Both the position numbers and the translations under genes were made by a program. This document shows, one piece after another, positions 12,885-34,048 of a stretch of DNA of 64,000 nucleotides (within the stretch, counting starts at the first letter, position 1; each line of letters begins with the position of its first letter). This DNA is from an uncultured Draconibacterium sp. Its GTDB lineage: Bacteria > Bacteroidota > Bacteroidia > Bacteroidales > Prolixibacteraceae. The notes below the pieces were generated by a model. It had not been told where the DNA came from and did not search any database. It was given only the letters and a program-made list of their open reading frames with translations. The stretch is from the NCBI RefSeq assembly GCF_913060805.1, contig NZ_CAJXTC010000006.1:62001-126000 (forward strand), read 5' to 3'.

Positions 12885-12941
12885 CAAAGATTCGAAACAA
12901 AATCTGTAAACAGGTGGAGTTTTAAATAATCCGGGTGGAGT
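12885..12941 (-). promoter_or_regulatory. Candidate hybrid-regulator operator and promoter of the GH43-GH43-GH51 operon
   Basis: On the minus strand ACTCCAC occurs at 12941-12935 and again at 12920-12914, a 21-bp direct repeat (GGTGGAGTTTT twice on the plus strand). Exactly 28 bp after the start of the nearer copy is AATCTTTG (12892-12885), a -7-like element with one mismatch to TAnnTTTG. The same layout is found before two other transcription units (22,005-22,061 and 33,971-34,048). AraC-type proteins bind direct half-sites two helical turns apart, and the hybrid regulator encoded at 22,112-26,398 ends in such a domain. Confidence 0.6.
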
Positions 12942-13079
12942 TTTGGATAAAAAAATGGTTTTACTCCTGTGTCCACTTTGTCCTATTTAAAAGTCTCCGT
13001 CAGAAAAGCTTTTACTGAAAGCTATAATTCATTCACAGCATTGATTTATAGAAGTATATGGTTTTTAAGATCACAAATA

Positions 13080-13112
13080 AAAGTCTGCCCAAATCTTGTT
13101 TGAGCAGACTTT
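13080..13112 (-). terminator. Terminator after the GH43 endo-arabinanase gene
   Basis: A 9-bp perfect stem (13080-13088 with 13104-13112) that extends inward by further pairs after one mismatch. On the minus strand it is followed by TTTTATTT. It sits about 72 nt past the GH43 stop codon and closes the operon that begins with the surface lipoprotein gene ending at 21,666. Confidence 0.7.
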
Positions 13113-13183
13113 ATAAATATCCTATCTATCGATGTTATAAATCGAAACTTCCAAGCTTATATTATCCAATCCCAACATCGTAA

Positions 13184-14875
13184 TTATTCTGTTTTTTTAC
13201 CCCAGTAAGTTGCGTCCAGATTTTTCTCAGTACCGGCATAAACCAGTGTTACAGCACGTGGAGAGGCTTCCCAATCCACTTCGCGTTCAACACAAACAAT
13301 TACATTACCCAATGTTAGTTGTTTGTTCGATTCATCGTAGCTCCAGTTTCCTGTAAGTGCACCTGTCATCGTACCATCCGATTTCAGGGTAAGACCGGTA
13401 GCGCCATCTTGCTGCGCATAGTGGTAACTCAGGTTAATGTGCTCCCAGGTACCAACCAGCTCGTCTTCGGTAATCGCACCGTATTCTTCAGGTACGCCGG
13501 CATAACGTTCGGGCAATGCAATTGGCCACAGGTTATTGGGTTCGTTTACCGACGCCGGACACCAAACAATGCGGCGTACGTGACCCATCATTATGGCATT
13601 GGAGTAAGCGTTACCACCCACATTTTTAGGCAGTCGTCCCTGCGACATGTAGAACCATTCGTCGGTATTTTCTTTTTGGAAAATGCAGCAGTGTGCAATT
13701 CCTACCCAGCCGTAACCCTCACTAAATTTGTAAGGATGCGTTACAATCGGATAACTGTCTCCTTGCCCGTCGGTAAAGTTCCGACCGGTAATATCGTAGT
13801 ACGGACCTTCAATGTTTTCGCTTCGTACCACTCGCGTGTTATACGGAACATCCAGTCCATCGTAAGCCATAAACAGGTAGTAGTAACCGTCTTTGTAAAT
13901 TACTTCCGGCGCTTCACTTCCTTGCCAGCGCGATCCTGCGGTACGTGTACCGATTCTCACACCATAACGCTCAGCCAGCTCGCTTGCACTGTCGGCCCAT
14001 GGATTACCCAGCGGATTGATTGGTTTTCCGGTTGTTGCATCAACTTGTAACAATGCAAAACCGCTGTGCCACGATCCGTGTATCAGGTAGTGGTTTCCAT
14101 CGGGTGCTACAATGTATGTTGGGTCGATGGCGTTGTAGTAGAAATAACCACTCCAGTCGGATAAACTTGAGCGACTGTAGTCCAGTCCACGATCCGATGA
14201 TGAGGTAGTTACAAAACCTTTGTCTTCCCAAACAGCTCCGGCCGGATCGGTTGATTCGCACATACCAATAAAGGCACGCTCGGTCCAGCTTCCGTCGAAG
14301 TTTTCTGCCGAATTGGTTTTACCCGACTCAATGTAATTAAAGATTACCACGCTGTAATACATGCGCAAAATCTCTTGTCCGCCAACGTTTACGCGGCGCA
14401 CTACCGGTGCCCAGTATCCGTATTGAATATTGTCTTCAGCGATGGCATCCAATCCCATGCGCGAACGAATTGAGTTAAGCGAATCGGCTACCCATTCCGG
14501 TGCGTCGTAAAAAGGTCCGCCAACCCATTCCCAGTTTACCAAATCGGTTGAACGTTTTCCCTGAAAATGCCCGTGTCCTTCGTGAGCATTACCATACGAT
14601 GCATCGGTGGCATACATGTAGTAATAACCGTTGTAGTAAGCAACCGATGGGTCGTGAACGTTGGCCAGGTTCCACTCGTCTCGGTTATTCCACGATGCTA
14701 TTGCAGAATAATCGTCGGGATATGATGGTATGGTGAAATCGATATCGGGATCAGTGTTATCATCCGGATCTTCAGGTTTTGTTACAATTCCTGTTGGTCC
14801 TGAATCATCGCTGCACCCGACAAATGTGAGGGAAGTTATGCTGATGAGAATAATCAATAAATACTTGAGCTTCAT
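13184..14875 (-). CDS. GH43 endo-arabinanase-like surface lipoprotein (subfamily 4 type, C-terminal beta domain)
   Basis: A 563-residue lipoprotein (LIILISITSLTFVGC, Cys21, followed by acidic SDDS as often seen in surface-exported Bacteroidota lipoproteins). After a short acidic linker (about 30-50) the propeller carries Asp75 (NVHDPSVAYYNGYYY), Asp251 (YNAIDPTYIVAPDG) and Glu321 (WQGSEAPEVIYKDG). The extra length, the CCIFQKENTDEWFYMSQGR segment and the C-terminal lipocalin-like part (LVGTWEHINLSYHY ... SDGTMTGALTGNWSYD) match the endo-acting arabinanases of arabinan loci such as that of B. thetaiotaomicron. It lies 83 bp after SusD, so it is probably the surface endo-enzyme making oligosaccharides for the adjacent SusC/SusD importer. 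Confidence 0.9.
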   Translation of the reverse strand: MKLKYLLIILISITSLTFVGCSDDSGPTGIVTKPEDPDDNTDPDIDFTIPSYPDDYSAIASWNNRDEWNLANVHDPSVAYYNGYYYMYATDASYGNAHEGHGHFQGKRSTDLVNWEWVGGPFYDAPEWVADSLNSIRSRMGLDAIAEDNIQYGYWAPVVRRVNVGGQEILRMYYSVVIFNYIESGKTNSAENFDGSWTERAFIGMCESTDPAGAVWEDKGFVTTSSSDRGLDYSRSSLSDWSGYFYYNAIDPTYIVAPDGNHYLIHGSWHSGFALLQVDATTGKPINPLGNPWADSASELAERYGVRIGTRTAGSRWQGSEAPEVIYKDGYYYLFMAYDGLDVPYNTRVVRSENIEGPYYDITGRNFTDGQGDSYPIVTHPYKFSEGYGWVGIAHCCIFQKENTDEWFYMSQGRLPKNVGGNAYSNAIMMGHVRRIVWCPASVNEPNNLWPIALPERYAGVPEEYGAITEDELVGTWEHINLSYHYAQQDGATGLTLKSDGTMTGALTGNWSYDESNKQLTLGNVIVCVEREVDWEASPRAVTLVYAGTEKNLDATYWGKKTE

Positions 14876-14958
14876 GTTTAATTGCTTTTGATTAAAAACT
14901 TCCTTATCGACACAAAAAATATGCCGATAAGGAAGTGGCTATTTTTTTTGAACAGTTC

Positions 14959-16716
14959 CTAATTCAGATCAACAATCGGACGAACAGTGTACCCTTTTTC
15001 AAAGAAAGCAGGTCCGTTGTCTTCGTTCTTGTTTGCCGAGTTACCCACAAGATTTGGGTTAGCATTCAAGGTTGACTGAAAGATTGGGAAATATTCATGT
15101 CCTTTATAGTAATATTCGAACGATGAATCATCAGCTGTTTCTGCAGTAAGCAGTTCTGTTGAAGCTGTACCATCACGTTTGTAATAAGCGTGCTCAACCA
15201 ACTGATTCAAACGATCAGCATCGTAGAAAAATCCCCAACGAAGCAAGTCGATACCACGTCCGTTTTCGCAACCAAATTCTTTTGGACGCTCAACGTTAGC
15301 AATTTGTTCGAACAGCGCATTTGCCGATGGGAAGTCTGAAACCTGAAGATCTTCAAGAGCAACACGGTTACGCACCTGGTTAATGTAATCGATAGCCGTT
15401 TGTGTTGGGCCGTTGATTTCGTTTTCGCACTCTGCAGCACGTAATAAAACGTCGCTGTAACGCATTAGGCGCAAGTTAACACCACAGTGCAATCCGTTTG
15501 TAATCGAGCTGTAAATGTTGTTTCTCGCATTGGTGAATTTCGCAATTGAGATACCACCCTGTGCATTGTTCGAAAGTGGAGTTTCAGTAATCTCTTGCTG
15601 ATAAATGGTGTTACTACGAGGATCTCCGTTTGGATATGCATCGGTTTTCAAACCGGTGTAAGTGTTATATTCCGGTTCGTAAGTTACCAGTGTCCAGTAT
15701 AAACGAGGATCTAAACGACCATCAGTACAGTTTTCAGCTCTGAACAGGTTGTACAACCATGGTGCTCCTGCAAGGTCACCCCAGCTACCCAATTCCTGAG
15801 AAGCGAAGTTACTTTCTACAGCGTGTCCCTGAGTTGCTTCAGAGCTAATGTTTACCGGAGTCCACTCTTCGTCAGTTCCGCCTGTTCCGTAGTCTAAAAA
15901 TTGTACTTCGAAAAGACTTTCAGCGTTGTTCTCAGTATCTTCTTTAAAGTTGTCGCCATAGTCGGGCACCAACTCGTAATGTCCGTATTTACCGGCAATA
16001 ATGTCTTTCAGTACGGTGTAAGCTTCGTTAAATTTATGACGGAACATTAAAGTACGCGCCAAATATCCGGCAGCAGCACCACATGTAGCACGACCTCCGG
16101 CCCACTCGCCACCTTCATCGCGCGATGGCAAAATGTTCATCGCTTCGGCAAAGTCAGCCTCAATTTGGTCGAATACTTCGTCTTGCGTGTTGTTAGCTGC
16201 ATACATGGTGTTAATATCCGAGTACGAAGCATAATCAGTAATTAAAGGAACTGTTTGGTAATACGTTGCCAAAGCATAGTAAGCCAAAGATCTCAGGAAC
16301 AATGCCTGACCTTTAATTTGGTTGTATGCATCTTCCGACATTTCAACTTCATCAACTTTCGATAATACAAAGTTGGTGCGGTTTACCACGTGGTAGTTGT
16401 CGCGCCAAGGCCACTCGTCACCAATTCCGATGGTTCCCGGAGAGTTCAAATTATCGTAATCTAAATACCACTGTTGAGATGAGTTCCAAACTTCGTCGCC
16501 ACGTACAGCATCCAAAGTATAACCAACACGGGCGTAAGTACCTTCAAGGCGAATGCGGTTGTAGCACGCAACAATCGCCTCCTGAAGTTCTGATTCTGTG
16601 TTACCAAAATCATAGGTGGTCTGGTTGTTCGGATTCACAACATCCAGTTGCTCATTGCAGGCGGTAAAACCTCCAATAAGCGCCAACATTATTAGAATTA
16701 TATTTAATCTTTTCAT
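14959..16716 (-). CDS. SusD-family lipoprotein of the arabinan operon
   Basis: A 585-residue SusD/RagB protein with lipoprotein signal (MKRLNIILIMLALIGGFTAC, Cys20) and typical helices such as KGQALFLRSLAYYALATYYQ (about 135-155) and YSDVLLRAAECENEING. It pairs with the SusC ending 29 bp upstream. The C-terminus does not show the common QNPGY ending but FFEKGYTVRPIVDLN, so the last segment differs from the other three SusD proteins here. Being in the hybrid-regulator operon, it most likely binds arabino-oligosaccharides; that is inferred from neighbours. Confidence 0.93.
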   Translation of the reverse strand: MKRLNIILIMLALIGGFTACNEQLDVVNPNNQTTYDFGNTESELQEAIVACYNRIRLEGTYARVGYTLDAVRGDEVWNSSQQWYLDYDNLNSPGTIGIGDEWPWRDNYHVVNRTNFVLSKVDEVEMSEDAYNQIKGQALFLRSLAYYALATYYQTVPLITDYASYSDINTMYAANNTQDEVFDQIEADFAEAMNILPSRDEGGEWAGGRATCGAAAGYLARTLMFRHKFNEAYTVLKDIIAGKYGHYELVPDYGDNFKEDTENNAESLFEVQFLDYGTGGTDEEWTPVNISSEATQGHAVESNFASQELGSWGDLAGAPWLYNLFRAENCTDGRLDPRLYWTLVTYEPEYNTYTGLKTDAYPNGDPRSNTIYQQEITETPLSNNAQGGISIAKFTNARNNIYSSITNGLHCGVNLRLMRYSDVLLRAAECENEINGPTQTAIDYINQVRNRVALEDLQVSDFPSANALFEQIANVERPKEFGCENGRGIDLLRWGFFYDADRLNQLVEHAYYKRDGTASTELLTAETADDSSFEYYYKGHEYFPIFQSTLNANPNLVGNSANKNEDNGPAFFEKGYTVRPIVDLN

Positions 16717-16745
16717 AATGATATCTTATTTATTCGATTATAGTT

Positions 16746-19700
16746 TTAGAATGAGAAGTTTACTCCAAACATCATGCTTCGTGGTGTTGGATACGAAGCG
16801 TAGTTGTAACCCGGAGTGAATGTTCCTCCTGCAAAATCTACGTTGTAACCTTTGTATTTCGACAATGTTGCTACGTTTTGAGCCGATGCGTAAACGCGAA
16901 CACCGCTAATGTATCCGCCAAACCAGCTGTCGGGCATGTTGTAACCCAACTCGATGTTGGCAATTTTAAGGTACGATGCATCCTGAATGTAACGCTGGCT
17001 AAACATATCGTTGGTAATTGAACCCGCCGATTTGTATGCAATACGTGGTACATCGGTATTTGTGTTGTCAGGTGTCCAGGCATTCAACAGGTCGGTGCTT
17101 TTGTTAAGTGCACCGTACGAGCTGTGCAAGGTAACGTCAACAAAGTCAACAGCTTTAAAACCTGCAGCTCCGTGTGTTGCCACGCTCAGGTCTAAACCTT
17201 TCCATTCTGCACGTGCATTAAAACCAAAGTTAAAGTCTGGCAAACCGCTTCCCAGGTAAGTCTGGTCTTCGTTGGTAATCTCGCCATCGTTGTTCAGGTC
17301 GGCGTAAGCCACGTCGCCCGGCTGTGCTCCGGGTTGATTGATGTATCCACCTTCTGAGTTGATACGGTTATCAATTTCTTCCTGCGACTGGAAGATACCT
17401 TCGTAAACGTAACCATAGAATGAACCCACTTCGCGACCTACCTCTGTGCGGCTGTTACCATCGGTACGAGGTTCGCCCGAAACACCTAACTTTTTCACTT
17501 CGTTGTTCAGCGTTGATAAGTTGGCAGTAAGGTCGAATTTAACCGCATTTTGGTGATTGTGGTAGGCAACCAGGAACTCAAGACCTGAGTTCTCCATTGT
17601 TGCAGCGTTCATTGTTACTGTTGCGTTTGTAGCACCGGCGTTTGTCGGAACGGCTACACTGTAAAGCAAATCTTCTGATGTTGATTTATACCAGTCGAAA
17701 GTAAATTCTAATTTATTGTTGAACATACCCAGGTCAAGACCAAAGTCGATGGTTTTTTTCTTTTCCCACATGATACCTGTGTTCACGTAGTTAGAAATTG
17801 CAGAACCGGTAACTTTGTTGTTATCGAAACTGTACGTGTAGTTACCTCTCGACATTACGTCCATGTACTGGTATTCACCAATGTTTTCGTTACCCAGCTC
17901 ACCGTAGCTACCACGAACTTTCAGTAAGTTAATTATCGATTCGTCAATATCGAAGAAGTCTTCGCGTTCGATACGCCAACCTCCCGAGATTGATGGGAAC
18001 CAATCCCAACGGTCTTCAGAAGAAAGACGGCTAGAACCATCGCGACGTACGGTTGCCGAAAGCAGGTATTTATCGTCGAAATTGTAGTTGATACGACCGA
18101 TGTACGAAGCCAAAACGTGTTCGCTTTCGTAACTGTTACCTGAAGTCTCCTCTGCATTATTGATTTGCAAATAGTAAGGCTCCGGCAGGTTCACACCTTT
18201 AGCGGCAAGTGTGTGGTAAAGCTCGCGCTGGAACGTTTGACCGGCAAGAACATTAACATGATGACGTCCGAATTTGCCATCGTAGTTAATTGTATTCTCA
18301 ATCAATGCATCGGTATATTTACGGTATCCTTGCGACAGCGTTTCGTTGCTTTTCGACAAGTAGTTTGTTGTACTTTGAATAAACGCAGGAACAAAAGTGA
18401 AATCCTTTGCAGTTGTTTGGCTGTACGATAAGTTAAGGTTGTAACTTAAATTGTGATTTTCGTTTGCCTGACCAACCATATCTAACAGGTCGACATTTGC
18501 TGAACCTGACGCAACAACACGGTCAACCTGAGAATTTCTTTCCAACAAATTATTGGTAAGCAAAAGGTTGGTTACACGCAAGTCGCCATGCACATCGTCG
18601 TAGTAAGTTCCGTAACCGTACGAGTCGTAGTTGTATTCTGATGCAGCCGAAATTTTATCGTCGAGCACCCAGGTTGATTCATCGTAAGCTTTAATACTCG
18701 GAGGAGTAAGCAATGCCGATGCCATAACCGGATATTGTGCACCATATAAACCCTGAACATACTCGTTAGCGTTACTCAACGACATGTTGTCCTGGTCGCT
18801 GTGGCTATAAACAATGTTTGTTTTAATCTTGATGAATTTAACATCCATGGTGTTGTTTACACGGGCAGTATAACGTTCGAAGTTAGGACCTGCACCTTCC
18901 ATTGTACCTTCCTGGCTGTAGTAGTCGAGCGCAATGTTGTAAGTGTTGTTTTCGCCACCACCCGATAAGTTGATGTTGTGGTTTTGGCGAATACCTGTTT
19001 TAAATGCTTCGTTGAACCAATCGGTGTTAACTACGCTTGGATCAAGGTATTTATCGCTTGTTGGATTGTATCCGGCAGGAACATCCATGTCGCTGTTATT
19101 GTATGCCATGGTAACGTACTGTCCGTATTGCGATGCATCCATAACATCGTAAACACCTTCTTGTACCTTGTCGATACCAAAGTAACCTTTATAGTCGATT
19201 TTCATCGCCTGGTTCTTTTTACCTTGTTTTGTGGTGATGATTACCACACCGTTTGCAGCACGCGAACCATAGATTGCAGCAGCCGCCGCATCTTTAAGCA
19301 CCTGGAGTGTTTCGATATCGTTTGGCGAGAAATCGCGGATTGTTGTTCCCATTGGTACACCGTCAACCACATAAAGAGGAGCAGTGCTACCAAACGAACC
19401 AATACCACGAATACGTACTGTTGGGTCGGCTCCCGGTTGTCCGTCAGAAGTAATCTGAACACCCGAAACTTTACCCTGAAGCATGGTTGAGATGTTTGAG
19501 TTTGAAACTTTTTTCATCTCTTCGGTATCAACAATTGCCACCGAACCGGTAAGGTCAACTTTACGCTGTGTACCGTAACCTACAACCACAACCTGGTCGA
19601 GGCCGATCATATCCGGAGCCAATGTAATGTTTCCGATTTGAGTTTTTCCTTCAACGGCTACTTCAATGCTTTTGTAACCGATAAACGAGATTGATAGTGT

Positions 19701-19943
19701 AGCATCAGAAGGAACAGATAGTGAGAAGTTACCATCTAAATCGGTGATGGTACCGTTTGTAGTTCCTTTTTGTTGAATGGTTGCGCCCGGAAGCGGTTCT
19801 CCGTTTTCGTCAACGATTTTACCATTTACTGTTATGTTGTCTTGTTGAGCCATCGCCACCTGGTCGGCAGTACCGTTACCTTCTGCGTATGTTGCCGTTG
19901 AAAATGCCAGCAACCCCAACAGGATTAAAAATAAATATTTCAT
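16746..19943 (-). CDS. SusC-family TonB-dependent transporter without STN domain (arabinan operon)
   Basis: A 1065-residue SusC/RagA importer. I place the start at the ATG at 19943 (MKYLFLILLGLLAFSTATYA, a good signal peptide); the open frame runs 12 codons further into the upstream gene. Right after the signal comes a carboxypeptidase-D-like domain (NGKIVDENGEPLPGATIQQK, about 40-120), then the plug with VVVGYGTQRKVDLTGSV and YGSRAANGVVIITTKQG, then the barrel ending SMMFGVNFSF. Unlike the three other SusC proteins in this window it has no STN domain. That fits control by the hybrid two-component regulator rather than by a sigma/FecR pair. Confidence 0.95.
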   Translation of the reverse strand: MKYLFLILLGLLAFSTATYAEGNGTADQVAMAQQDNITVNGKIVDENGEPLPGATIQQKGTTNGTITDLDGNFSLSVPSDATLSISFIGYKSIEVAVEGKTQIGNITLAPDMIGLDQVVVVGYGTQRKVDLTGSVAIVDTEEMKKVSNSNISTMLQGKVSGVQITSDGQPGADPTVRIRGIGSFGSTAPLYVVDGVPMGTTIRDFSPNDIETLQVLKDAAAAAIYGSRAANGVVIITTKQGKKNQAMKIDYKGYFGIDKVQEGVYDVMDASQYGQYVTMAYNNSDMDVPAGYNPTSDKYLDPSVVNTDWFNEAFKTGIRQNHNINLSGGGENNTYNIALDYYSQEGTMEGAGPNFERYTARVNNTMDVKFIKIKTNIVYSHSDQDNMSLSNANEYVQGLYGAQYPVMASALLTPPSIKAYDESTWVLDDKISAASEYNYDSYGYGTYYDDVHGDLRVTNLLLTNNLLERNSQVDRVVASGSANVDLLDMVGQANENHNLSYNLNLSYSQTTAKDFTFVPAFIQSTTNYLSKSNETLSQGYRKYTDALIENTINYDGKFGRHHVNVLAGQTFQRELYHTLAAKGVNLPEPYYLQINNAEETSGNSYESEHVLASYIGRINYNFDDKYLLSATVRRDGSSRLSSEDRWDWFPSISGGWRIEREDFFDIDESIINLLKVRGSYGELGNENIGEYQYMDVMSRGNYTYSFDNNKVTGSAISNYVNTGIMWEKKKTIDFGLDLGMFNNKLEFTFDWYKSTSEDLLYSVAVPTNAGATNATVTMNAATMENSGLEFLVAYHNHQNAVKFDLTANLSTLNNEVKKLGVSGEPRTDGNSRTEVGREVGSFYGYVYEGIFQSQEEIDNRINSEGGYINQPGAQPGDVAYADLNNDGEITNEDQTYLGSGLPDFNFGFNARAEWKGLDLSVATHGAAGFKAVDFVDVTLHSSYGALNKSTDLLNAWTPDNTNTDVPRIAYKSAGSITNDMFSQRYIQDASYLKIANIELGYNMPDSWFGGYISGVRVYASAQNVATLSKYKGYNVDFAGGTFTPGYNYASYPTPRSMMFGVNFSF

Positions 19944-19968
19944 GTTTAAATATGTTTTATCAAAGTGA

Positions 19969-21666
19969 TTATTCAACAATTACGATATAAGATCCTTCCA
20001 GCACAATTGCAGTATTCAAATCAGAGCTGTCTACCGTTATTCCTGCATATTCCTGGAAATGTGTTTCGCCGGTGGCATAAGTAACATCGTAACGAATGTC
20101 GGCAGTGTTGTCGCCGTTATTGGTTACAGTGATCTCAATTAGTGATCCGCTAATGCTTGCACCAAAAATGTCGAAGTTCCAGTCGTTTGTATTAGTTGAT
20201 GTAGCATAACCGTCGCCCCAACCGAAGTTGTCCATACGAACTACACCGTATTCAGTCATGTCAGCTTTGCGAAGAATTGTACTCGGGCTGTTCCAGTTGT
20301 TAACACCATTCGAGTAAGCATACATTTTAATTGTTGTGCTTTCGCCTGATGGAACCGCGTAATCTTCAGAGAACTGTGTCCACCATCCGGTAGAGAAGTC
20401 GTAAGCACCTACCTGGCCAATACCTTTAGTAAGCGTAAGCGGGCATGTAGTAGTAACTGTGTTTGTTGCACCAACATACGATATAACTGCTTCCTGAGCA
20501 CCTTCGGCTGCCGGAATTGTGCTAAACTGAAGTGATTCGTTCGATAATACACCGGTTGTTCCGTCGGAATAGGTAGCTGTAACAACCAATCCTCTGGTGT
20601 TGAATATGATATCCATTGTGTCGGTGTAGAAATAGTATTCAGTAATATTTGGTAATGTAGTAACCTCAAGAGCAGTAACCGAGTTGGTAACTTCCAAAGT
20701 ATATAAGGTTGTTACAGGCTCGCTCAATTCGCCTTGTTTGGTTTTGTTGTAAGCTACAATAACTGTCTTTTCTCCAAGAGTTGTCATATCAGGAATTACC
20801 GAGAAAGTAATATCTGTAGTGTCAACTTCTTCAGACGATCCGTCGGCGTAAGTAACAGTTGCTACTGCATTTCCCCAGAAATCTTCGTTGCCAATTTCAA
20901 CAAATTCAGGTGTTCCTGTAACCGAAATCGAAACCGGTGCAACATCTTCAACAACAGTTATCTCAGAAGGTAAAAGGTATGCTTCTTTCATCTCGAACCA
21001 GCTGCCATCAGTAATTAGGTAAGCATAAATATCGGCAGTTGCTGATACCGGTTGTTGGTAAGTCATGGTTAATACTGTACCGTTAGTTCCTTCAGCAACG
21101 GCTGTAACAAATGCGTTACCGGTAACTGAGTGGTCAATTTCCAGTGTAACATAAGCGCCTTGCATGGTTTCGCGGAAGTCATTCCAAATGTCGTCATCGC
21201 CATCGGTATCAGGATAATCCTGCGATACCAATCCTAAATCGAAATCATCGTTACCCCAGCCGTAAGCATCAGAACGAAGAACGAAATATTGTTCAAAACC
21301 ATCGGCATCACGATCATCCATATTTGCTACAGCAAGGTTCCAGTTGTTCCAGTTATTAACTCCGGAGCCGTGGTTCACAAATTCTAAATGCAACAGTTTG
21401 TTTGTAGGAATGCCAAAGTAATCAGAGACTACAGTGTTCCATCCGGAACTGTTATCCTCCGCTCCAACTATTGGTGTAATGATGTTAAGGTAAGTAGTGT
21501 CTCCTGTGTTTACACTTGCTTTCGCATCTGCGATTGAGTCGATCCGGCTCTGCAAGTCAGATGGCGCATCAATTGAATAAGTCTCCAATTGCTCGCAACT
21601 AACCAGGCCAAACGCTGCCAAAACTGCTACGCATAAAGCGTATCTTATCAGTTTAGTTGTCTTCAT
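19969..21666 (-). CDS. Surface lipoprotein with duplicated glycan-binding-like module and two Ig-like domains
   Basis: A 565-residue lipoprotein starting at the ATG at 21666 (MKTTKLIRYALCVAVL, Cys24); an upstream in-frame ATG adds only 8 non-signal residues. The N-terminal module (about 55-235) and the C-terminal module (about 420-565) look alike: both have GVNNWN, an aromatic VLR/VVRMD segment with GWGxD or GWGDG, and a DFDLG/NFDIFGAS-type stretch before a beta-strand-rich end. Between them are two Ig-like repeats, seen as ATVTYADGSSEEVD and ATYSDGTTGVLS. It is the first gene of the SusC/SusD/GH43 operon, a place where surface glycan-binding proteins are found in other loci. I do not know a named family for the repeated module; carbohydrate binding is inferred. 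Confidence 0.72.
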   Translation of the reverse strand: MKTTKLIRYALCVAVLAAFGLVSCEQLETYSIDAPSDLQSRIDSIADAKASVNTGDTTYLNIITPIVGAEDNSSGWNTVVSDYFGIPTNKLLHLEFVNHGSGVNNWNNWNLAVANMDDRDADGFEQYFVLRSDAYGWGNDDFDLGLVSQDYPDTDGDDDIWNDFRETMQGAYVTLEIDHSVTGNAFVTAVAEGTNGTVLTMTYQQPVSATADIYAYLITDGSWFEMKEAYLLPSEITVVEDVAPVSISVTGTPEFVEIGNEDFWGNAVATVTYADGSSEEVDTTDITFSVIPDMTTLGEKTVIVAYNKTKQGELSEPVTTLYTLEVTNSVTALEVTTLPNITEYYFYTDTMDIIFNTRGLVVTATYSDGTTGVLSNESLQFSTIPAAEGAQEAVISYVGATNTVTTTCPLTLTKGIGQVGAYDFSTGWWTQFSEDYAVPSGESTTIKMYAYSNGVNNWNSPSTILRKADMTEYGVVRMDNFGWGDGYATSTNTNDWNFDIFGASISGSLIEITVTNNGDNTADIRYDVTYATGETHFQEYAGITVDSSDLNTAIVLEGSYIVIVE

Positions 21667-22004
21667 AAAATTAAATTTGATTAAATACATTTTTGTTGAT
21701 TATAAAGTATTGTTCATAAAACTTTCGTGGTATAATATTCTAACAGATCTTGCTATAAAGTATTGATAGACTGAAGTGTTAAAATCGAGCCCAGTGCACA
21801 CTTTGCAGTTTATGTTCCGTGTAGTGTACTTTTTTCAACTTTGCTAAATCCGGGAAGTGAATTGCTCCGGTTGCGGAATACGGCACCGGTTAAGGTGCGT
21901 TGTGCAAAACTTGTGTCTGAAGAAAACAGAGACAGGCGCACAATTAGATAAGTTAAGTTCTTTTTCATAATTAATTAAATTGGTTTACACGTAATTTCTG
22001 TTTG
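21667..22004 (-). promoter_or_regulatory. Long leader upstream of the arabinan SusC/SusD operon
   Basis: The 445-bp gap between the hybrid-regulator gene and the lipoprotein gene holds no credible open frame. If transcription begins just after the -7-like element at 22,005-22,012, the mRNA has a leader of roughly 330 nt. Several partly complementary stretches occur, for instance GCACAA/TTGTGC around 21,900-21,945, but I saw no known riboswitch. Confidence 0.4.
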
Positions 22005-22061: not shown

Positions 22062-22111
22062 ATTGTGGAAATCTGTTTTTAGCGTGTGTTTTCGGTGCTT
22101 TTGGCTGGTGT

Positions 22112-26543: not shown

Positions 26544-26563
26544 TTTCAATCAAACTATTCTAC

Positions 26564-27112
26564 GTGGATCGACTAAAGTTGTGGAAAGATATTCAGAGCG
26601 GCGATGTAAACGCATTGCACGATTTGCACAAACGGTATTTTCATCCGATGTGTTTGTTTGCGTTTAAATCAATCAACGATCACCAACAGGTTGAGCACAT
26701 CGTTTCGGATTGTTTTTTGAAGATCTGGAAAAACAGAAAGCGCATTGAAATAAAATCTTCGCTTGAATCGTATCTGTATCAAATTCTGCGAAATGCCATT
26801 ATCGATTATCACCGGGCAAAACACGATAACACCATTTCTTTTGATCAGATTCCGGATATTCCCGACGAGGCGGAAGTGAACAACGAACAGCGCTATGCAA
26901 AATTATACACTGCCATTTCGCGATTGCCCGAAAAACGCCGGCAAATTTTAGAACTCGCCATTTTTGAATCGTGCACTTACCAGGAAATTGCCGAAAAGCT
27001 CGGTATCACAAAAAATACGGTAAAAACGCAGATGGTTCGTGCCTACGGGTTTTTAAAAGAATCGCTGGATCCCGTCGACTTCTTCTTTTTCTGTTTCCTG
27101 AAGAAAATTTAA
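26564..27112 (+). CDS. ECF RNA polymerase sigma factor (cassette C), GTG start
   Basis: A 182-residue ECF sigma-70 factor. Region 2 is at about 18-85 (LHKRYFHPMCLFAFKS ... IVSDCFLKIWKNRKRIEIKS) and region 4 at about 118-165 with YQEIAEKLGITKNTVKTQM. The start is GTG at 26564; the nearest upstream ATG (26532) is out of frame. The C-terminus is hydrophobic (DPVDFFFFCFLKKI), like the tails of the two other ECF factors in this window. It opens a cassette with FecR, STN-type SusC and SusD and is divergent from the hybrid regulator. Confidence 0.93.
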   Translation: MDRLKLWKDIQSGDVNALHDLHKRYFHPMCLFAFKSINDHQQVEHIVSDCFLKIWKNRKRIEIKSSLESYLYQILRNAIIDYHRAKHDNTISFDQIPDIPDEAEVNNEQRYAKLYTAISRLPEKRRQILELAIFESCTYQEIAEKLGITKNTVKTQMVRAYGFLKESLDPVDFFFFCFLKKI

Positions 27113-27208
27113 AATATTCACTTTTCCTGTCACCCTTTCACCAACTTTTCTTCGTCATACTATTGCGAATACGTTTTTTATAGATTAGTTTGGTTAGGTA
27201 GGATTTAT

Positions 27209-27239
27209 AAGAGCAGCAGCAAAAACAACTGTTGCTCTT
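27209..27239 (+). promoter_or_regulatory. Hairpin between sigma and FecR genes (cassette C)
   Basis: A 10- to 11-bp stem with one G-T pair and a 9-nt A-rich loop (27209-27219 with 27229-27239), followed by TTTAAAAAAAG, ending 13 nt before the FecR start codon. It may partly terminate transcription or hide the FecR start region and so set the sigma to anti-sigma ratio. That role is inference. Confidence 0.45.
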
Positions 27240-27252
27240 TAAAAAAAGTTAG

Positions 27253-28251
27253 ATGATAGAACACAACAAAGATAGATTTTGGGAGCTGGCAACGCTAAAG
27301 ATTCACAACGAAGCAAACGCCGATGAATTAAGTGAGCTGAGTTCGTATCTATCGGATGAAAAATATGCCAAAATATACACCGAAATAGCGCATTTAAGAG
27401 AAGATGTAAAAGCCACTCAAAAGCTTTCGCTTGTTTCGCAGCAAAACTCATGGACCCATATTACAACCCATTTGCAAAACAAAACCATACAGTTGTTCCG
27501 AAAAGTTTCGGGCTATGCCGCTGTTTTTGTAGTTGCCTTGTTGTTGGGAGGTTTGGCGGTTCAAATGTGGAGCCAGAAAAGCTACGAAGAGCGGTTTGCA
27601 GAAGTAAAAGTGCCGCTGGGGCAAATGTCGGAAGTTACCTTGTGCGATGGTACGCATGTTTGGCTGAACTCGGGAACTACACTGAAATACAGCAATGCGT
27701 TTGGCCGAAATAGCCGAAATGTTACCCTCGATGGAGAAGCTTTTTTTGACGTGGAAAAATCCGATGTTCCGTTCCGCGTAAAGTTAAAGCACTCATTCGT
27801 AGAGGTTTTGGGAACCCAGTTTAATGTTATCTCGTACAAACACGATAGTAACAGCGAAATTACGCTGGTTGAGGGGAGTGTTAACGTAAATAATCTGAAT
27901 GGAAATAACATCGCACATCTGGAACCATCGCAGCAGCTTACTATCGACGATGAGTCGCTGAAAGCAAAACTGAGAACCGTAGATACCGGTTTTTATGTGT
28001 CGTGGACCGAAGGAAAAATTGTATTCCACGACGAAAAACTCTCGGAAATATGCGAGCGGTTGGAACGGTGGTACAATGTGGATATAACGCTGGAAGACAA
28101 AGAGGTAGAAGAATTAAATTTTTCGGGAACAATACTTAAGGATAAACCATTTAGCCAGATTATAACAGCATTCGAACTTTTATTGCCGGTTGAAATTGAA
28201 TTCAGGCATGTGTCGGGTGCTAAAGACAAAGTAACCATTTCTAAAAAATAG
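27253..28251 (+). CDS. FecR-family anti-sigma factor (cassette C)
   Basis: A 332-residue inner-membrane anti-sigma factor. The cytoplasmic N-terminal part (1-85) is followed by a membrane helix at about 87-107 (GYAAVFVVALLLGGLAVQMW). The periplasmic FecR domain shows LGQMSEVTLCDGTHVWLNSG and EVLGTQFNVISYKHD, and the C-terminal DUF4974-like domain shows LSEICERLERWYNVDITLED. It should hold the ECF factor encoded 140 bp upstream and respond to the STN domain of the SusC encoded downstream. Confidence 0.92.
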   Translation: MIEHNKDRFWELATLKIHNEANADELSELSSYLSDEKYAKIYTEIAHLREDVKATQKLSLVSQQNSWTHITTHLQNKTIQLFRKVSGYAAVFVVALLLGGLAVQMWSQKSYEERFAEVKVPLGQMSEVTLCDGTHVWLNSGTTLKYSNAFGRNSRNVTLDGEAFFDVEKSDVPFRVKLKHSFVEVLGTQFNVISYKHDSNSEITLVEGSVNVNNLNGNNIAHLEPSQQLTIDDESLKAKLRTVDTGFYVSWTEGKIVFHDEKLSEICERLERWYNVDITLEDKEVEELNFSGTILKDKPFSQIITAFELLLPVEIEFRHVSGAKDKVTISKK

Positions 28252-28282
28252 TGCCTATGTAAAAACGCGTATGAACTAAAAA

Positions 28283-28310
28283 CGGTAAAGATGCTGCCAC
28301 ATCTCTACCG
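28283..28310 (+). promoter_or_regulatory. Stem-loop between FecR and SusC (cassette C)
   Basis: An 11-bp stem with one mismatch (28283-28293 with 28300-28310) and a 6-nt loop CTGCCA. It lies 31 nt past the FecR stop and ends 46 nt before the SusC ATG. Its size, place and loop (CTGCCA here, CTGCAA in cassette A) match the other junction hairpins. Confidence 0.55.
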
Positions 28311-28356
28311 CAAATCGATTTAAATATCTCAGTAATAATTTAAACCATGTAAATGT

Positions 28357-31300
28357 ATGAAAAAACTAATTAAAGCGATTGGTAGTAACCGGTCGTGGAA
28401 CCAAATTTTATTGAAAATGAAACTTACGTTTTCCTTTCTGTTGATTGGATTGATTACAGTCAGTGCCTCAACGTATTCGCAAAACACCAAGCTTGATGTT
28501 TCGTTAGAAAACAACAACATTATCGAGCTGTTCCGTCAAATCGAAGAAAAGAGTGAGTTCTACTTCTTTTATCAAAAAGAAGATCTTTTAGCATTTAACG
28601 AAGTATCAGTATCGAAAGAGAATGCTACAATTAATGAAATTCTGGACGATGTACTTGCAGAAACCGATATGATCTATGAAGTAGTGGATCGGTATGTAAT
28701 TGTTCGCAAGGATGGAAAATCGTCTTTCGGAGTGGATGATGATGCAGACCAGCAAAACCGGGTTACTGGTAAAGTGGTCGACGAATTTGGAGAGCCGCTG
28801 CCCGGTGTAACCGTTGTTATTAAAGGAACTGCGCAGGGAACCGTTACCGATGTAAACGGTGAGTACAGCCTGGAGGTAGCTGCCGAAGATGCTGTTTTGC
28901 AGTATTCGTTTGTTGGAATGCGCTCGCAGGAAATTGCAGTTGCCGGCCAAAGCAACATCGATGTAACTCTTGTGGTTGATGCCATTGGAATTGAAGAGGT
29001 AGTTGCGATTGGTTACGGAACCGTAAAAAAGGCCGATGTAACCAGTGCGGTATCTTCAGTTAAATCGGAAGACTTTGTAAAAGGTAGCGTAAAAGATGTT
29101 GGTCAGTTGATCCAGGGAAAAGTTGCCGGTTTAACCATTACATCAAGCAGTGGCGACCCGCTTGCCGGAACATCAATTACTTTAAGGGGTAACACTACGC
29201 TGTTCGGAACCAGCAGCAGCCCGCTGGTATTAATCGATGGCGTGCCGGGCGATTTTAACGCTGTAGCTCCTGAAGATATCGAATCAATCGACGTATTAAA
29301 AGATGGTTCGGCAGCAGCAATTTACGGTACCCGTGGTACAAACGGTGTAATCCTTATTACAACAAAACGTGCCAGTGGCGATTACGAAGGAAATGTTGAA
29401 TACACCGCATATATTTCTACACAGCAAATTGCGCAAAAAGCCGAAATGCTTACCGCTGCTGATTACCGTCAGCAAATTGCAGCCGGTATTCGCGATGCCA
29501 GCGACGATCTTGGCGCAAACACCGACTGGATCGACGAGATAACTCAGACACCATTTTCGCAAGTTCACAACTTAACATTCCGTGGCGGAAATAATAAAAC
29601 AAATTATTTGGCCAGCATTAACTACAACGACACTGAAGGTATTTTCCTGAAAACAGGTAAAAAAACCTTTACTGCCCGTACCGATATTAACCACAGTATG
29701 TTTGATGATCTGATCAAATTTAACCTGGGTATTCTATCGCGTAATATTTATCACGACAATGTGGCCAGTACCAACTACACATATCGTCAGGCAAAAATCT
29801 ACAACCCAACAGCGCCGATAACAAATCCTGATGGAACATGGTACGAAAATCCGGGAGCTTTCAACTACGACAACCCTGTTGCCCGAATTAAAGAAAGTAA
29901 CGGCGAGGATCGTTCGCAGTGGTCGCGACTGAACGGAACAGTTATCATTAATCCATTCGAAGGTCTTACTTTGAAAGGATTATTTAGCTACTCGAAATAC
30001 AATTCGCGCGGCAGTTACTACGAAACCAAAAATCATATTTCAAACGTTCGTAACGGATTGAATGGTTATGCTTCAAACTCATCGGTTGAGTCGATCGACC
30101 GTTTGGTTGAATTAACAGCCGAATACCTTAAAATTATTGGCGAACACCGTTTTACCATTTTGGGTGGTTACAGTTATCAGGATAACGACTGGCACGATTT
30201 GTTGATGACCAACCAGGATTTCCCTACCGACCTTTTTGGTGCCGATCAAATTCAGTTGGGTACCGGAATTCTTGAAGGCGGAACTTCGTCGGGTATCAGA
30301 AGCAGAAGAACCAAAACTAACCTTATTGGTTTCTTCGGACGTTTAAATTATAACTACAAAAACCGTTACCTGTTAATGGCAAGTTTGCGTCACGAGGCAG
30401 CAAGCCAGTTGTACGGAACCGAAGAACCTTGGGGTACTTTCCCATCTGTTTCTGTTGGTTGGCGTATTTCGGAAGAGTCGTTTATGGAGAATGTTTCTTT
30501 TGTTGACGACTTAAAATTCAGAGCCGGTTATGGTGTAACCGGAACACAGCCAAGTAACTTGTTCCTTGGAGTAGCTACAATCGGTTATTCCGGTTCGGTT
30601 TATTCAAACGGACAGTGGATGCAAACATTGGCTCCAACCCGAAACCCAAATCCATACCTGCGTTGGGAGGAGAAAAAGGAAACCAACCTCGGTGTTGATT
30701 TTGTTTTGGCCGACAGCCGTGTAAGCGGTAGTATCGATGTGTATAATCGTACCATCGACGGATTGTTGTACGATTACACTGTTCCTGTGCCTCCAAACTT
30801 AGTTACAACTACACGCGCCAATGTTGGTAAAATGGAAAACAAAGGATTGGAAGTATTGGTAAATGTAGTGCCTGTGCGCACCAGAGATTTTGAGTGGATA
30901 AGCAGTTTTAATTTCTCTACCAACTCGAATAAACTGGTTAGCCTGTCAAACGACTTGTACCAGGCAACCCAGGAGTATTTTACTACCGGAGGAACCGGCG
31001 AACCAATTCAGACTTTTACTCACCGTGTTGATATTGGCGATAAGATCGGTAATTTCTACGGGTTCAAAGTGGTTGACGTTGATGAAGACGGAAAGTGGAT
31101 TTACGAAGACGCCGAAGGAAATGAAGTTCCTTCTGATGAGTTCTCGCGTGCTTTCGAAGACAAACATGTGTTAGGAAACGGTTTGCCAAAATTCTATGCC
31201 GGCTGGAACAACAATTTCCGTTACAAAAATTTCGATCTGGGTGTTACTATGCGTGGTGCATTTGGTTACCAGATTCTGAATTTCGAGCGCATGTACCTCG

Positions 31301-31647
31301 AAAATACCATGTCGATTCAGTACAACCGTTTACAATCGGCTTACGATCCAATATTCGGAAAAGCTGTATTGAGCGATGAAATGGACCTGGAATACAACTC
31401 GTACTACATTGAAGACGGTGATTACTGGAAGATTGACAATATTACATTGGGATACACTTTTGATCTCGACAATGAATACATTAAAGGAGCGCGCGTTTAC
31501 GTATCTTCTCTGAACACCTTCACCTTCACAGGTTATAAAGGTGTCGATCCGGAAGTATCCAGAAGCGGCCTTTCTCCGGGCAACGACTATCGCGATAAAT
31601 ATCCGACAACACGGACATTTACTTTGGGTGTAAACGTTAACTTTTAA
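28357..31647 (+). CDS. SusC-family TonB-dependent transporter with STN domain (cassette C)
   Basis: A 1096-residue SusC/RagA importer. A short basic N-terminus and hydrophobic signal segment (LTFSFLLIGLITVSAS) precede an STN domain at about 45-125 (DVSLENNNIIELFRQIEEKS), a carboxypeptidase-D-like domain (GKVVDEFGEPLPGVTVVIKG, about 137-220), the plug (AIGYGTVKKADVTSAVSSV; TRGTNGVILITTKR) and a barrel ending FTLGVNVNF. The STN domain and the preceding sigma/FecR pair make this an autoregulated cell-surface-signalling transporter. Its SusD partner starts 18 bp later. The substrate is unknown. Confidence 0.95.
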   Translation: MKKLIKAIGSNRSWNQILLKMKLTFSFLLIGLITVSASTYSQNTKLDVSLENNNIIELFRQIEEKSEFYFFYQKEDLLAFNEVSVSKENATINEILDDVLAETDMIYEVVDRYVIVRKDGKSSFGVDDDADQQNRVTGKVVDEFGEPLPGVTVVIKGTAQGTVTDVNGEYSLEVAAEDAVLQYSFVGMRSQEIAVAGQSNIDVTLVVDAIGIEEVVAIGYGTVKKADVTSAVSSVKSEDFVKGSVKDVGQLIQGKVAGLTITSSSGDPLAGTSITLRGNTTLFGTSSSPLVLIDGVPGDFNAVAPEDIESIDVLKDGSAAAIYGTRGTNGVILITTKRASGDYEGNVEYTAYISTQQIAQKAEMLTAADYRQQIAAGIRDASDDLGANTDWIDEITQTPFSQVHNLTFRGGNNKTNYLASINYNDTEGIFLKTGKKTFTARTDINHSMFDDLIKFNLGILSRNIYHDNVASTNYTYRQAKIYNPTAPITNPDGTWYENPGAFNYDNPVARIKESNGEDRSQWSRLNGTVIINPFEGLTLKGLFSYSKYNSRGSYYETKNHISNVRNGLNGYASNSSVESIDRLVELTAEYLKIIGEHRFTILGGYSYQDNDWHDLLMTNQDFPTDLFGADQIQLGTGILEGGTSSGIRSRRTKTNLIGFFGRLNYNYKNRYLLMASLRHEAASQLYGTEEPWGTFPSVSVGWRISEESFMENVSFVDDLKFRAGYGVTGTQPSNLFLGVATIGYSGSVYSNGQWMQTLAPTRNPNPYLRWEEKKETNLGVDFVLADSRVSGSIDVYNRTIDGLLYDYTVPVPPNLVTTTRANVGKMENKGLEVLVNVVPVRTRDFEWISSFNFSTNSNKLVSLSNDLYQATQEYFTTGGTGEPIQTFTHRVDIGDKIGNFYGFKVVDVDEDGKWIYEDAEGNEVPSDEFSRAFEDKHVLGNGLPKFYAGWNNNFRYKNFDLGVTMRGAFGYQILNFERMYLENTMSIQYNRLQSAYDPIFGKAVLSDEMDLEYNSYYIEDGDYWKIDNITLGYTFDLDNEYIKGARVYVSSLNTFTFTGYKGVDPEVSRSGLSPGNDYRDKYPTTRTFTLGVNVNF

Positions 31648-31665
31648 TTCTAAAACTGATCAGAA

Positions 31666-33294
31666 ATGAAAAAAATAAAATATAGCAATCAATTCGGCAT
31701 ATTATTTCTAATTCTGGCCTTGGTGATTTCATCATGTACCGAGTTGGAAGACACGAGTTACGGAGAAATTATTGCCGAACAATTCGAACCAACAGAAGAA
31801 GATATTGTAGCCATTGTTGGCTCGGCATACGGAAACTGGAGACAAATATTATTGGAGTGGAATGGTTTGTGGCGAGCTCAGGAAGTAGGCGCCGACGAAA
31901 TCGTAATTCCGGGCCGCCCAAACGGTTGGGTTGATGGTGGTATTTACCGCCGTATGCACGAACACGACTGGACTACCGACGACAATAATGTGTATGTAAC
32001 ATGGGACAGAACATTCTCGGGAATTGCCAACTGTAACCGTGTAATTTACCAGGTAGAATCGGGCTTTTTGCCGCTCGAAGAAACAAAAGATGAGGTACTT
32101 GCTGAATTAAAAGTTCTTCGTGCAAGTTACTATTATATCCTGATTGACCTGTACGGAAATGTTCCGTTGGTAACCAGTTTTGATGTGGAAGAAGGTTATT
32201 TGCCTGAGCAAAGTTCAAGAGCCGAAGTGTTCAACTTTATTGTATCCGAAATTACCGATAACATTCAATACCTGTCGTCCGATTTTAACGCGCTTACTTA
32301 TGGCCGTTTTAACGAATGGGCAGCACGTACTTTGTTGGCAAAAATGTATTTAAATGCTGAGGTTTACACCGGCACGCCAATGTGGAACGAATGTATTGAG
32401 CAGTGTAATGCAATCATCAACTCGGGCGCAGGTTACGAGCTGGAAGGTAACCAGAAAAGTGTGTTTGTTACCGAGAATCAAAACTCGAAAGAGATTATTT
32501 TCGGATTATCGATCGACGACCAGTATACAACTGCCTGGAACGCGTTCGATATACATATGCAAACTTGTCAGCCGTCAATGCAGGCTAAATACAATTTGCA
32601 AATGACTCCGTGGGGAGGTATGTGTGCCATTCCGCAGTTTATCGACACTTTCGATCCGGAAGATAAGCGCCTTACCAATAACTTTATGATGGGGCAACAA
32701 TATTCGGCTGCCGGCGATCCGCTGTATGTTACAATGGGTAGCCTGGTTGGCGAGCCACTGGCATTGGTAAACGAACTGCCGGGCGTACATTCTTCGGAAG
32801 AAATCCACGGTTATCGTTTCGAGAAATTTGAGATCGCACTGGGTTCTTCAAATATTCTGAACAACGATTATCCATTGTTCCGTTACGCCGATGTGTTGAT
32901 GATGAAAGCCGAATGTTTACTTCGTACAGGAGATGCTGATGAAGCAGCAGCAATTGTTTCTGAAGTTAGAGCACGTGCTTTCGACGATGCAGCAAAGGCA
33001 ACAGTTACGGGTGCTGAATTGATGGAAGGAAGTGTTTACGACTATGGTTTGCGTAACGAATTCGACACTACTGAAGAAGGTGGTGCAGATGTTCAGTACG
33101 GTCGTTTCCTTGATGAGTTGGGCTGGGAGTTCAACCAGGAAGGACGCCGCCGTCAGGATATGATTCGTTTTGGAATTTACACAACCAAGTCTTATTTGTC
33201 GCACACGCCAAATGGCGAGTACCGTGCCTTGTATCCAATTCCTCGCGGAAGACTGGAATCAAACACCAATTTGAGCCAGAATCCGGGATATTAG
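31666..33294 (+). CDS. SusD-family lipoprotein (cassette C)
   Basis: A 542-residue SusD/RagB protein with lipoprotein signal (FGILFLILALVISSC, Cys24), helices such as LAELKVLRASYYYILIDLYG (about 145-165) and LFRYADVLMMKAECLLRTGD, and the usual end LSQNPGY. It forms the extracellular lid of the SusC encoded just upstream. A strong hairpin follows the stop codon. Confidence 0.94.
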   Translation: MKKIKYSNQFGILFLILALVISSCTELEDTSYGEIIAEQFEPTEEDIVAIVGSAYGNWRQILLEWNGLWRAQEVGADEIVIPGRPNGWVDGGIYRRMHEHDWTTDDNNVYVTWDRTFSGIANCNRVIYQVESGFLPLEETKDEVLAELKVLRASYYYILIDLYGNVPLVTSFDVEEGYLPEQSSRAEVFNFIVSEITDNIQYLSSDFNALTYGRFNEWAARTLLAKMYLNAEVYTGTPMWNECIEQCNAIINSGAGYELEGNQKSVFVTENQNSKEIIFGLSIDDQYTTAWNAFDIHMQTCQPSMQAKYNLQMTPWGGMCAIPQFIDTFDPEDKRLTNNFMMGQQYSAAGDPLYVTMGSLVGEPLALVNELPGVHSSEEIHGYRFEKFEIALGSSNILNNDYPLFRYADVLMMKAECLLRTGDADEAAAIVSEVRARAFDDAAKATVTGAELMEGSVYDYGLRNEFDTTEEGGADVQYGRFLDELGWEFNQEGRRRQDMIRFGIYTTKSYLSHTPNGEYRALYPIPRGRLESNTNLSQNPGY

Positions 33295-33315
33295 TCAGTT
33301 AATTCAACTTTATAA

Positions 33316-33350
33316 AGGGAGCCTGACTTCGCGATGAGGTCAGGCTCCTT
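33316..33350 (+). terminator. Terminator after SusD (cassette C)
   Basis: A 10-bp perfect stem (33318-33327 with 33339-33348), extended inward by three more pairs, followed by TTCTTCAAATTTG. It is likely a terminator or attenuator between SusD and the small twin-arginine protein gene. Confidence 0.75.
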
Positions 33351-33367
33351 CTTCAAATTTGATTGAG

Positions 33368-33940
33368 ATGGAAGCCAATAATACCAGCAATAGTCGCAGG
33401 AGTTTTATCAAGAAATCATGTTTGGCAGGTTCTTGTGCTTGCGGATTTTTAGCTTTTGCGAATGAAAGTCGTGCAGAGGAGCAACCCGATTCCGGGAAAT
33501 TACTCATGCAGCAGTGGATTTCAACTCTCTTAAAAAGTATCGACGATAACACCGAAGCTTCGCAACAGATTTTGAAGAATTGTGCCCAGGTACATTTTCA
33601 GCATTTAGAAATGGAAAAAGTGCTGCAACCGTACAAAGGCGACAACGAAAAATTCATCTCATTTTTGGAAAAAGAGTGGGGCTGGAAGATTGATTACGAT
33701 AAAGATGCCGGTGTAGTATTGGCCAACGAAAACAAGGATTACTGTGTTTGCCCAATGGTAAATCAGGAAAAAGGAGTGGACTCATCAATATTGTGTTACT
33801 GCTCTGAAGGATTCGCCGAACTCATGTTTTCCTTTGTTTCAGAACATCAGGTTAAAGCAGAAGTAGTATCATCAATCCATCGCGGAAAGAATACCTCTAT
33901 TTATAACAATAATACTTGTATTTATAAAGTGCTTCTATAA
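33368..33940 (+). CDS. Small twin-arginine-signal, Cys-rich protein of unknown function
   Basis: A 190-residue protein read from the ATG at 33368 (MEANNTSNSRRSFIKKSC); a TTG three codons earlier is less likely. SRRSFIK followed by a mildly hydrophobic stretch with SCLAGSCACGFLAFA is a good twin-arginine export signal. The mature part is mostly helical and charged, then has CVCPMV and LCYCSEGFAELMF with a final CIYKVLL. This C-terminal Cys pattern recalls small families related to 4-vinyl-reductase or aminothiazoline-carboxylate-hydrolase domains, but I would not name it. Twin-arginine export would suggest folding or cofactor loading before export. It follows SusD after a terminator and precedes the GH27 operon. 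Confidence 0.7.
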   Translation: MEANNTSNSRRSFIKKSCLAGSCACGFLAFANESRAEEQPDSGKLLMQQWISTLLKSIDDNTEASQQILKNCAQVHFQHLEMEKVLQPYKGDNEKFISFLEKEWGWKIDYDKDAGVVLANENKDYCVCPMVNQEKGVDSSILCYCSEGFAELMFSFVSEHQVKAEVVSSIHRGKNTSIYNNNTCIYKVLL

Positions 33941-33970
33941 TTTTTCATGAGATTTACGTGATAACAAATA

Positions 33971-34048
33971 TGTGCAAGTTTTTTACCGATTTGTCCACAT
34001 AATACTCATAAATGTCTTCTCAAAAAATAAGAGTTTGTTTTACTTTTG
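33971..34048 (+). promoter_or_regulatory. Candidate hybrid-regulator operator and promoter of the GH27-GH127 operon
   Basis: TGTGCAA (33971), TGTCCAC (33992) and TGTCTTC (34013) follow one another at exact 21-bp steps. The middle copy is identical to the nearer site in the SusC/SusD arabinan promoter; the outer two are weaker. TACTTTTG at 34041-34048 is an exact TAnnTTTG and begins 28 bp after the last copy, the same distance as at the two minus-strand promoters. No -33 TTTG is present, which fits an activator-dependent promoter. The leader is about 40 nt. Confidence 0.6.

Follow-up and report, generated by a model that had tools for sequence, protein, structure and literature searches.

The window analysed here, 64,000 nucleotides of the genome of an uncultured Draconibacterium sp. 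(contig NZ_CAJXTC010000006.1), carries the gene of a hybrid two-component system (HTCS) regulator beside operons for the use of arabinan. Three promoters in this window share pairs of 17-bp direct half-sites, stepped by 21 bp and placed at a similar distance upstream of a -7-like element; in all likelihood these pairs are bound by a dimer of the HTCS that activates the SusC/SusD, GH43-GH43-GH51 and GH27-GH127 operons and, outside the window, a GH2 gene. Judged from sequence comparison, the repeats are very probably the operator of the HTCS encoded at 22112-26398. The anatomy of the sites, their conservation, their co-occurrence with the HTCS and the recurrence of the same geometry at susC promoters of other Bacteroidota HTCS loci were all observed directly. 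The loci and promoter elements are:

22112-26398, minus strand: HTCS gene, with Reg_prop/Y_Y_Y sensor, HisKA, HATPase_c, receiver and AraC-type helix-turn-helix (HTH), by Pfam
14959-21690, minus strand: SusC/SusD arabinan operon (open reading frame (ORF) 19969-21690, SusC 16746-19979, SusD 14959-16716)
8985-12686, minus strand: GH43-GH43-GH51 operon (GH43 11685-12686, GH43 10697-11674, alpha-L-arabinofuranosidase of GH51 type 8985-10517)
34096-42526, plus strand: GH27-GH127 operon, in the gene order GH27-type, GH127, alpha-L-arabinofuranosidase, GH127
22055-22071, minus strand: susC promoter, distal half-site, 17 bp, including CGTCCAC at 22061
22034-22050, minus strand: susC promoter, proximal half-site, including TGTCCAC at 22040
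22005-22012, minus strand: susC promoter, -7-like element TAGTTTTA, starting at 22012, read directly
12935-12951, minus strand: GH43 operon promoter, distal half-site, including ACTCCAC at 12941
12914-12930, minus strand: GH43 operon promoter, proximal half-site, including ACTCCAC at 12920
12885-12892, minus strand: GH43 operon promoter, -7-like element AATCTTTG, starting at 12892, identical in two aligned relatives
33961-33977, plus strand: GH27 promoter, outermost (third) half-site, including TGTGCAA at 33971
33982-33998, plus strand: GH27 promoter, middle half-site, including TGTCCAC at 33992
34003-34019, plus strand: GH27 promoter, proximal half-site, including TGTCTTC at 34013 (TGTCCTC in one relative)
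34041-34048, plus strand: GH27 promoter, -7-like element TACTTTTG, starting at 34041, read directly

The repeats had been described in an initial annotation of this DNA, and direct reading confirmed their letters and positions base for base, every step at the three promoters being 21 bp. The 7-mers given there as the repeat unit correspond to the gene-proximal part of a half-site, which is about 17 bp long, not 7; its limits in the window were borrowed from the phylum-wide lag-21 profile of HTCS-locus promoters that is described below. The candidate -7 elements match the fixed letters of TAnnTTTG at five of six positions (TAGTTTTA and AATCTTTG) or at all six (TACTTTTG). The third GH27 half-site falls outside a two-site model.

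The site beside the HTCS gene in relatives

In a family set of 140 genomes, the HTCS, called at an E value of at most 1e-220, is present in 37, and 27 of them, counting the Draconibacterium genome itself and four genomes in which the site is inferred, have a TCCAC-type dimer just past the HTCS gene. A pattern search found 14 of these, again with the genome itself, in which 55-77 bp separate the end of the HTCS match from the start of the site; fetched sequence revealed the dimer directly after the gene in 9 more, and the inferred cases are G011, G094, G096 and G110, for which only an N-terminal HTCS match is listed. In G024, G026, G027, G028, G100, G102 and G123 there was no pattern match after the HTCS, and the sequence was not fetched. 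When steps of 19-23 bp were allowed, 21 was the best in the 9 positive regions among the 12 fetched. An extra 28-spaced site lies on the divergent side of the HTCS gene in G043.

A second view came from 80 retrieved loci: L045-L050, the six with the greatest similarity to the HTCS as a whole, were read. An exact dimer stands just after the HTCS gene in three, and two have TGTCCAC followed 21 bp on by AGTCCTC or CGTCCTC; L049 has a different gene next to the HTCS, and no dimer was seen there. The spacing from the near repeat to the -7-like element, counted by eye, is 28 in L046, L047, L048 and L050 and 29 in L045. Alignments of orthologous susC and GH43 promoters showed that the dimer and the -7 blocks are kept while the flanks have diverged.

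The site also keeps company with the regulator across the family. When a site was defined as the composite pattern (TCCAC-N16-TCCAC, 21 N, then TAnnTTTG) without its last G and with at most one mismatch, a hand tally of the 140 genomes gave 23 with both site and HTCS, 9 with the site only, 14 with the HTCS only and 94 with neither (Fisher 4e-10). In at least three of the 23 (G051, G071, G102) the match is on a contig other than that of the HTCS and may be due to chance, and in G047 it is the GH2 site. The co-occurrence, the position after the HTCS gene and the ortholog alignments support the proposal of the initial annotation that the adjacent HTCS would bind these repeats as its operator.

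Between the -7 element of the susC operon and ORF 19969-21690, an ATG at about 21968 (minus strand) opens a short signal-peptide-like frame, MKKNLTYL..., at about 21850-21968, and several aligned relatives have a similar frame start, MKRNLTY. Either a leader or what is left of a susC-like gene may be encoded here.

The GH27, GH43 and GH2 promoters

The GH27 site, with its outermost copy, is kept in all five aligned genomes, GTGCAA being identical in each. In four of these genomes the sequence between the repeat and the -7 element is alike too, which makes the repeat less conspicuous in them than in G045, whose sequence has diverged most. The site of the GH43 operon is kept in three aligned genomes and was seen in a fourth, G051, and alignment showed the GH2 site kept in 2 genomes. 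In G075 the GH27 gene is divergent from the HTCS gene and starts within about 1 kb of its start, and in G047 and G051 the GH27 gene lies on a contig other than that of the HTCS and the site is still present. This combination of conservation, nearness to the HTCS in one genome and retention where the two are unlinked ties GH27-GH127 to the HTCS regulon, and the earlier proposal that this operon shares one regulon with the arabinan operons is supported at the level of sequence. In the window, an ECF sigma/FecR/SusC(STN)/SusD locus (26564-33294) separates the HTCS gene from the GH27-GH127 operon.

A motif-free test across Bacteroidota HTCS loci

The geometry was also followed without any assumption about the letters of the half-sites. 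From eight genomes, 141 HTCS places were listed; all were fetched from B. cellulosilyticus (52), B. neonati (16), P. goldsteinii (21), Pedobacter steynii (11) and Maribacter luteus (9), and part of them from Chitinophaga tropicalis (11 of 13), a Marinilabiliaceae genome (1 of 7) and Carboxylicivirga mesophila (0 of 12). The pool formed with the 80 loci, those of the Draconibacterium genome and the window contained 163 susC genes, with starts called mechanically, and 148 unique upstream regions, in which 51 exact TAnnTTTG boxes were scored. Each promoter was then compared with itself at lags of 12-32 and distances of 8-44, making 777 cells. Lag 21 tops all 777, and the seven top cells printed are all of lag 21. 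At lag 21 and distances of 26-30 the identity is 0.405, versus 0.275 +/- 0.018 in shuffles (reached in 0 of 100), and 0.400 when the window and its orthologs are excluded; with one box mismatch allowed (282 boxes) it is weaker, 0.334 versus 0.277, and still at the top.

The single-base profile at lag 21 is raised in two blocks upstream of the box, one at 38-30 bp and one at 27-22 bp, and a 17-bp window peaks from 38 to 22 bp upstream, with an identity of 0.416 versus 0.298 when the halves are re-paired between promoters (0 of 10000, 50 boxes). The arrangement known from araI, a half-site of about 17 bp and a gap of 4 bp, is here a pooled result over 50 promoter boxes of many HTCS loci. The signal is found at susC genes with noncoding sequence upstream (0.426 versus 0.303 re-paired, n = 45, 0 of 2000), and neither at the promoters of the HTCS genes themselves (0.298 versus 0.284, n = 71, 228 of 2000) nor at intragenic boxes (0.263 versus 0.259, n = 400, 490 of 2000). 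Other genes of the HTCS loci gave a weaker signal (0.332 versus 0.286, n = 280, 0 of 2000), as would be expected if some of them are HTCS targets. The scored boxes are mostly from Bacteroidales; Maribacter contributed two (0.412) and Chitinophaga one, which had no signal (0.176). An earlier and smaller run used 59 susC regions and one-mismatch boxes (50 regions and 78 boxes without orthologs); its global maximum was reached by 7 of 200 shuffles and the predicted cell by 1 of 200. In that run no clear signal came from a subset of 13 regions far from an HTCS (10 of 200), and the global maximum was not passed by two near-HTCS subsets (28 of 200 and 29 of 200).

A similarity at this lag might arise from phased A-tracts or DNA curvature near promoters with no repeat being bound, as 21 bp makes two helical turns and there is a slight rise at lags 11 and 31 (0.307 and 0.321, versus about 0.28). 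Lag 21 at 0.416 is, however, far above every other lag, the next being 22 at 0.340, the matched letters in the window include the C-rich TCCAC, and the signal is missing from the promoters of the HTCS genes within those loci and is abolished by re-pairing the halves, so that curvature is a very improbable source of it. A bound repeat is the better account, and it is reasonably likely that Bacteroidota HTCSs use one nearly rigid geometry, in which 4 bp separate two 17-bp half-sites and the nearer of these ends about 22 bp (21-23) before TAnnTTTG.

Another regulator, an unlinked AraC-family protein or a second HTCS, could bind the repeats instead and co-regulate arabinose-type genes. Of the 32 genomes with a composite site, nine have no HTCS match at E 1e-220, the unlinked GH27 sites of G047 and G051 would suit such a protein, and the Draconibacterium genome encodes about a dozen HTCS-like proteins. 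Set against this are the co-occurrence of site and HTCS, the site's place immediately after this very gene in the 27 genomes, and the finding that similar HTH domains go with similar half-sites and not with similar flanks (Mantel, 13 of 1000, for 18 promoters preselected for a repeat). Another regulator is therefore improbable, and the Mantel result is no more than suggestive of a specificity of HTH for half-site. At two other HTCS loci, L192 and L110, the susC promoters have TGTCCAT-type half-sites 21 bp apart, which suggests a TCCAY core common to a subset of HTCSs. Over the 50 boxes, drawn from many HTCS loci, a TGAACAA-like sequence is weakly favoured in the half-site's gene-distal part, and the gene-proximal part is more variable.

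Pattern counts and points against the assignment

In the window, TCCAC-N16-TCCAC occurs exactly twice, both times at the described promoters, and with at most one mismatch 8 times, versus a shuffle mean of 2.79 (8 being reached in 1 of 100 shuffles). In the genome scan that the initial annotation had proposed, the composite with at most two mismatches occurs at 8 places in the whole 5.48 Mb genome, and these include the GH2 promoter without a mismatch (contig C9, locus L009, gene assigned by Pfam), the GH43 and susC promoters with one each, and the GH27 promoter with two, as one of five such places. Across the 140 genomes, the composite without its last G and with at most one mismatch was hand-counted at 37 places (32 genomes), versus 18 for the reversed control. 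Among the 14 exact dimers of the Draconibacterium genome, the ORF context was viewed for three outside the window (L009, L012 and L010). That of L010 lies inside a gene; that of L012 (C34; 36-1382 and 1598-2548) lies, with a spacing of 27, at the promoter of a GPH-type sugar symporter gene, whose divergent neighbour encodes a BT_3657-like arabinosidase N-terminal domain, and the symporter is a possible further member of the regulon.

Several results weigh against assigning the repeats to the HTCS, the looser counts among them. The bare exact dimer occurs 14 times genome-wide versus 19 for the reversed control, the composite with up to three mismatches 62 versus 97 times, and the composite with up to two mismatches, counted by hand in the 140 family genomes, 68 versus 84 times, with no enrichment in any of these. 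In three of the 12 fetched regions after the HTCS (G117, G071 and G127) the dimer is absent or degraded. The proximal GH27 half-site, TGTCTTC, is degenerate, with 5 of the 7 letters of TGTCCAC. Exact TAnnTTTG boxes are a minority among the susC upstream regions, and absence of a -33 TTTG as a hallmark was unsupported, by counts alone (2 of 45 versus 34 of 280 boxes). The orthologous susC promoters in the nine fetched positives have the step of 21 and a spacing of 29.

The fixed distance of 28 bp to the -7 element, which the initial annotation had put forward, is true of all three window promoters and too strict for the family. The nine promoters with 29 had been fetched because the 28-bp pattern had not matched there, so that the true distribution is 28 or 29; together with the 27 of the L012 symporter they rule out a strict 28-bp rule. 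Enrichment of the bare dimer was likewise dropped as proof of an operator: since the dimer is not enriched over the reversed pattern, counts alone cannot establish one, and the case is carried by conservation. Conservation also bears on whether the three promoters are alike by chance and through the reader's choice of letters, with the GH27 promoter in particular not belonging, a view to which the loose counts and the 5 of 7 letters lend something. Relatives carry each of the three sites again, step and spacing class unchanged, and the GH27 site is kept with its third copy in five aligned genomes, which leaves coincidence hardly credible.

The HTCS protein and a proposed mechanism

The window HTCS combines a periplasmic propeller sensor, a histidine kinase, a receiver and an AraC-type HTH in one chain. 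Its receiver-HTH part matches PDB 12aw, a solved HTCS receiver-HTH chain, with an E value of 7.8e-58, and its sensor part matches PDB 4a2l; the S/CHIP motif described for HTCS receivers (PMC11253607) is present in the translation as SHIP.

In the mechanism proposed here, the repeat would represent a pair of AraC-type half-sites, each about 17 bp long, with a gap of 4 bp between them that gives the 21-bp step. The C-terminal HTH of the HTCS, phosphorylated and in two copies, would bind them from the same side of the helix. From the end of the gene-proximal half-site to the start of the -7 element there are 22 bp, which would place this half-site over the -33 region (both elements as defined in PMC7366714). 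There the bound dimer may make contact with the primary sigma factor or with RNA polymerase and so recruit it; the near half-site covering the place of the -33 element points to class II-like activation. By this means a single HTCS, presumably induced by arabinan, would switch on the SusC/SusD, GH43-GH43-GH51 and GH27-GH127 operons and the unlinked GH2 gene.

Among the regulators of glycan-use loci in B. thetaiotaomicron, HTCSs have been described as the most abundant (PMC6874557), and in the published work found their operators are mostly predicted and seldom mapped. A geometric rule anchored at the -7 element would permit operators and regulons to be predicted from one genome, would assign a sensor to operons not linked to it (here GH27-GH127 and GH2), and offers a testable class II-like model of activation at promoters served by a non-standard sigma factor. 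The same layout stands before transport genes that neighbour such regulators in several related bacteria, and may help to predict the targets of polysaccharide regulators. If it is true across Bacteroidota, an HTCS operator could be read from a single promoter without knowledge of its letters, and finding operators for a major class of polysaccharide regulators would become a lookup.

Comparison with known systems

The idea of 21-bp direct repeats for HTCSs is already in print: Ravcheev et al. 2013 (PMC3878776) predicted the motifs of 16 Bacteroides HTCSs as direct repeats at an average distance of 21 bp, with the HTCS dimer on one face two turns apart, and noted that regulons may include distant operons. 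The sites described here are like those operators in being direct repeats about 21 bp apart, upstream of HTCS-locus operons and conserved in orthologs. They differ in scope, as the HTCS-regulon text of that paper covers Bacteroides only and gives no distance to the -7 element, the site lists being in its supplements. A fixed distance to the -7 element was not found stated in the literature searched, supplements and figures lying outside that search; the legend of a supplementary figure in PMC5061871 describes predicted sites and -7 boxes marked together, so that the distance could be read from that figure.

Direct binding is reported, in the publications found, for BT0366, and for BT1754 at its own gene (PMC5061871, PMC3404733). 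B. thetaiotaomicron BT0366 shifts its arabinan promoters in an electrophoretic mobility shift assay (PMC5061871), and a BT1754/BT0366 chimera binds the BT0366 arabinan locus in chromatin immunoprecipitation sequencing (PMC3404733). Like BT0366 (HTCS_Ara-1), the window HTCS lies beside an arabinan SusC/SusD locus, and the direct promoter binding that belongs to BT0366 is predicted for it. Unlike that of BT0366, its proposed regulon adds GH27-GH127 and GH2.

AraC of E. coli occupies 17-bp direct half-sites, araI1 and araI2, that are 21 bp apart, with the near one at the -35 region. The two half-sites of about 17 bp in the window, with their 4-bp gap and the near one over the -33 region, are arranged in the same manner, whereas the regulator differs from AraC in being membrane-bound, activated by phosphorylation and without an arabinose-binding arm, and the -7 element, TAnnTTTG, is of the Bacteroidota type.

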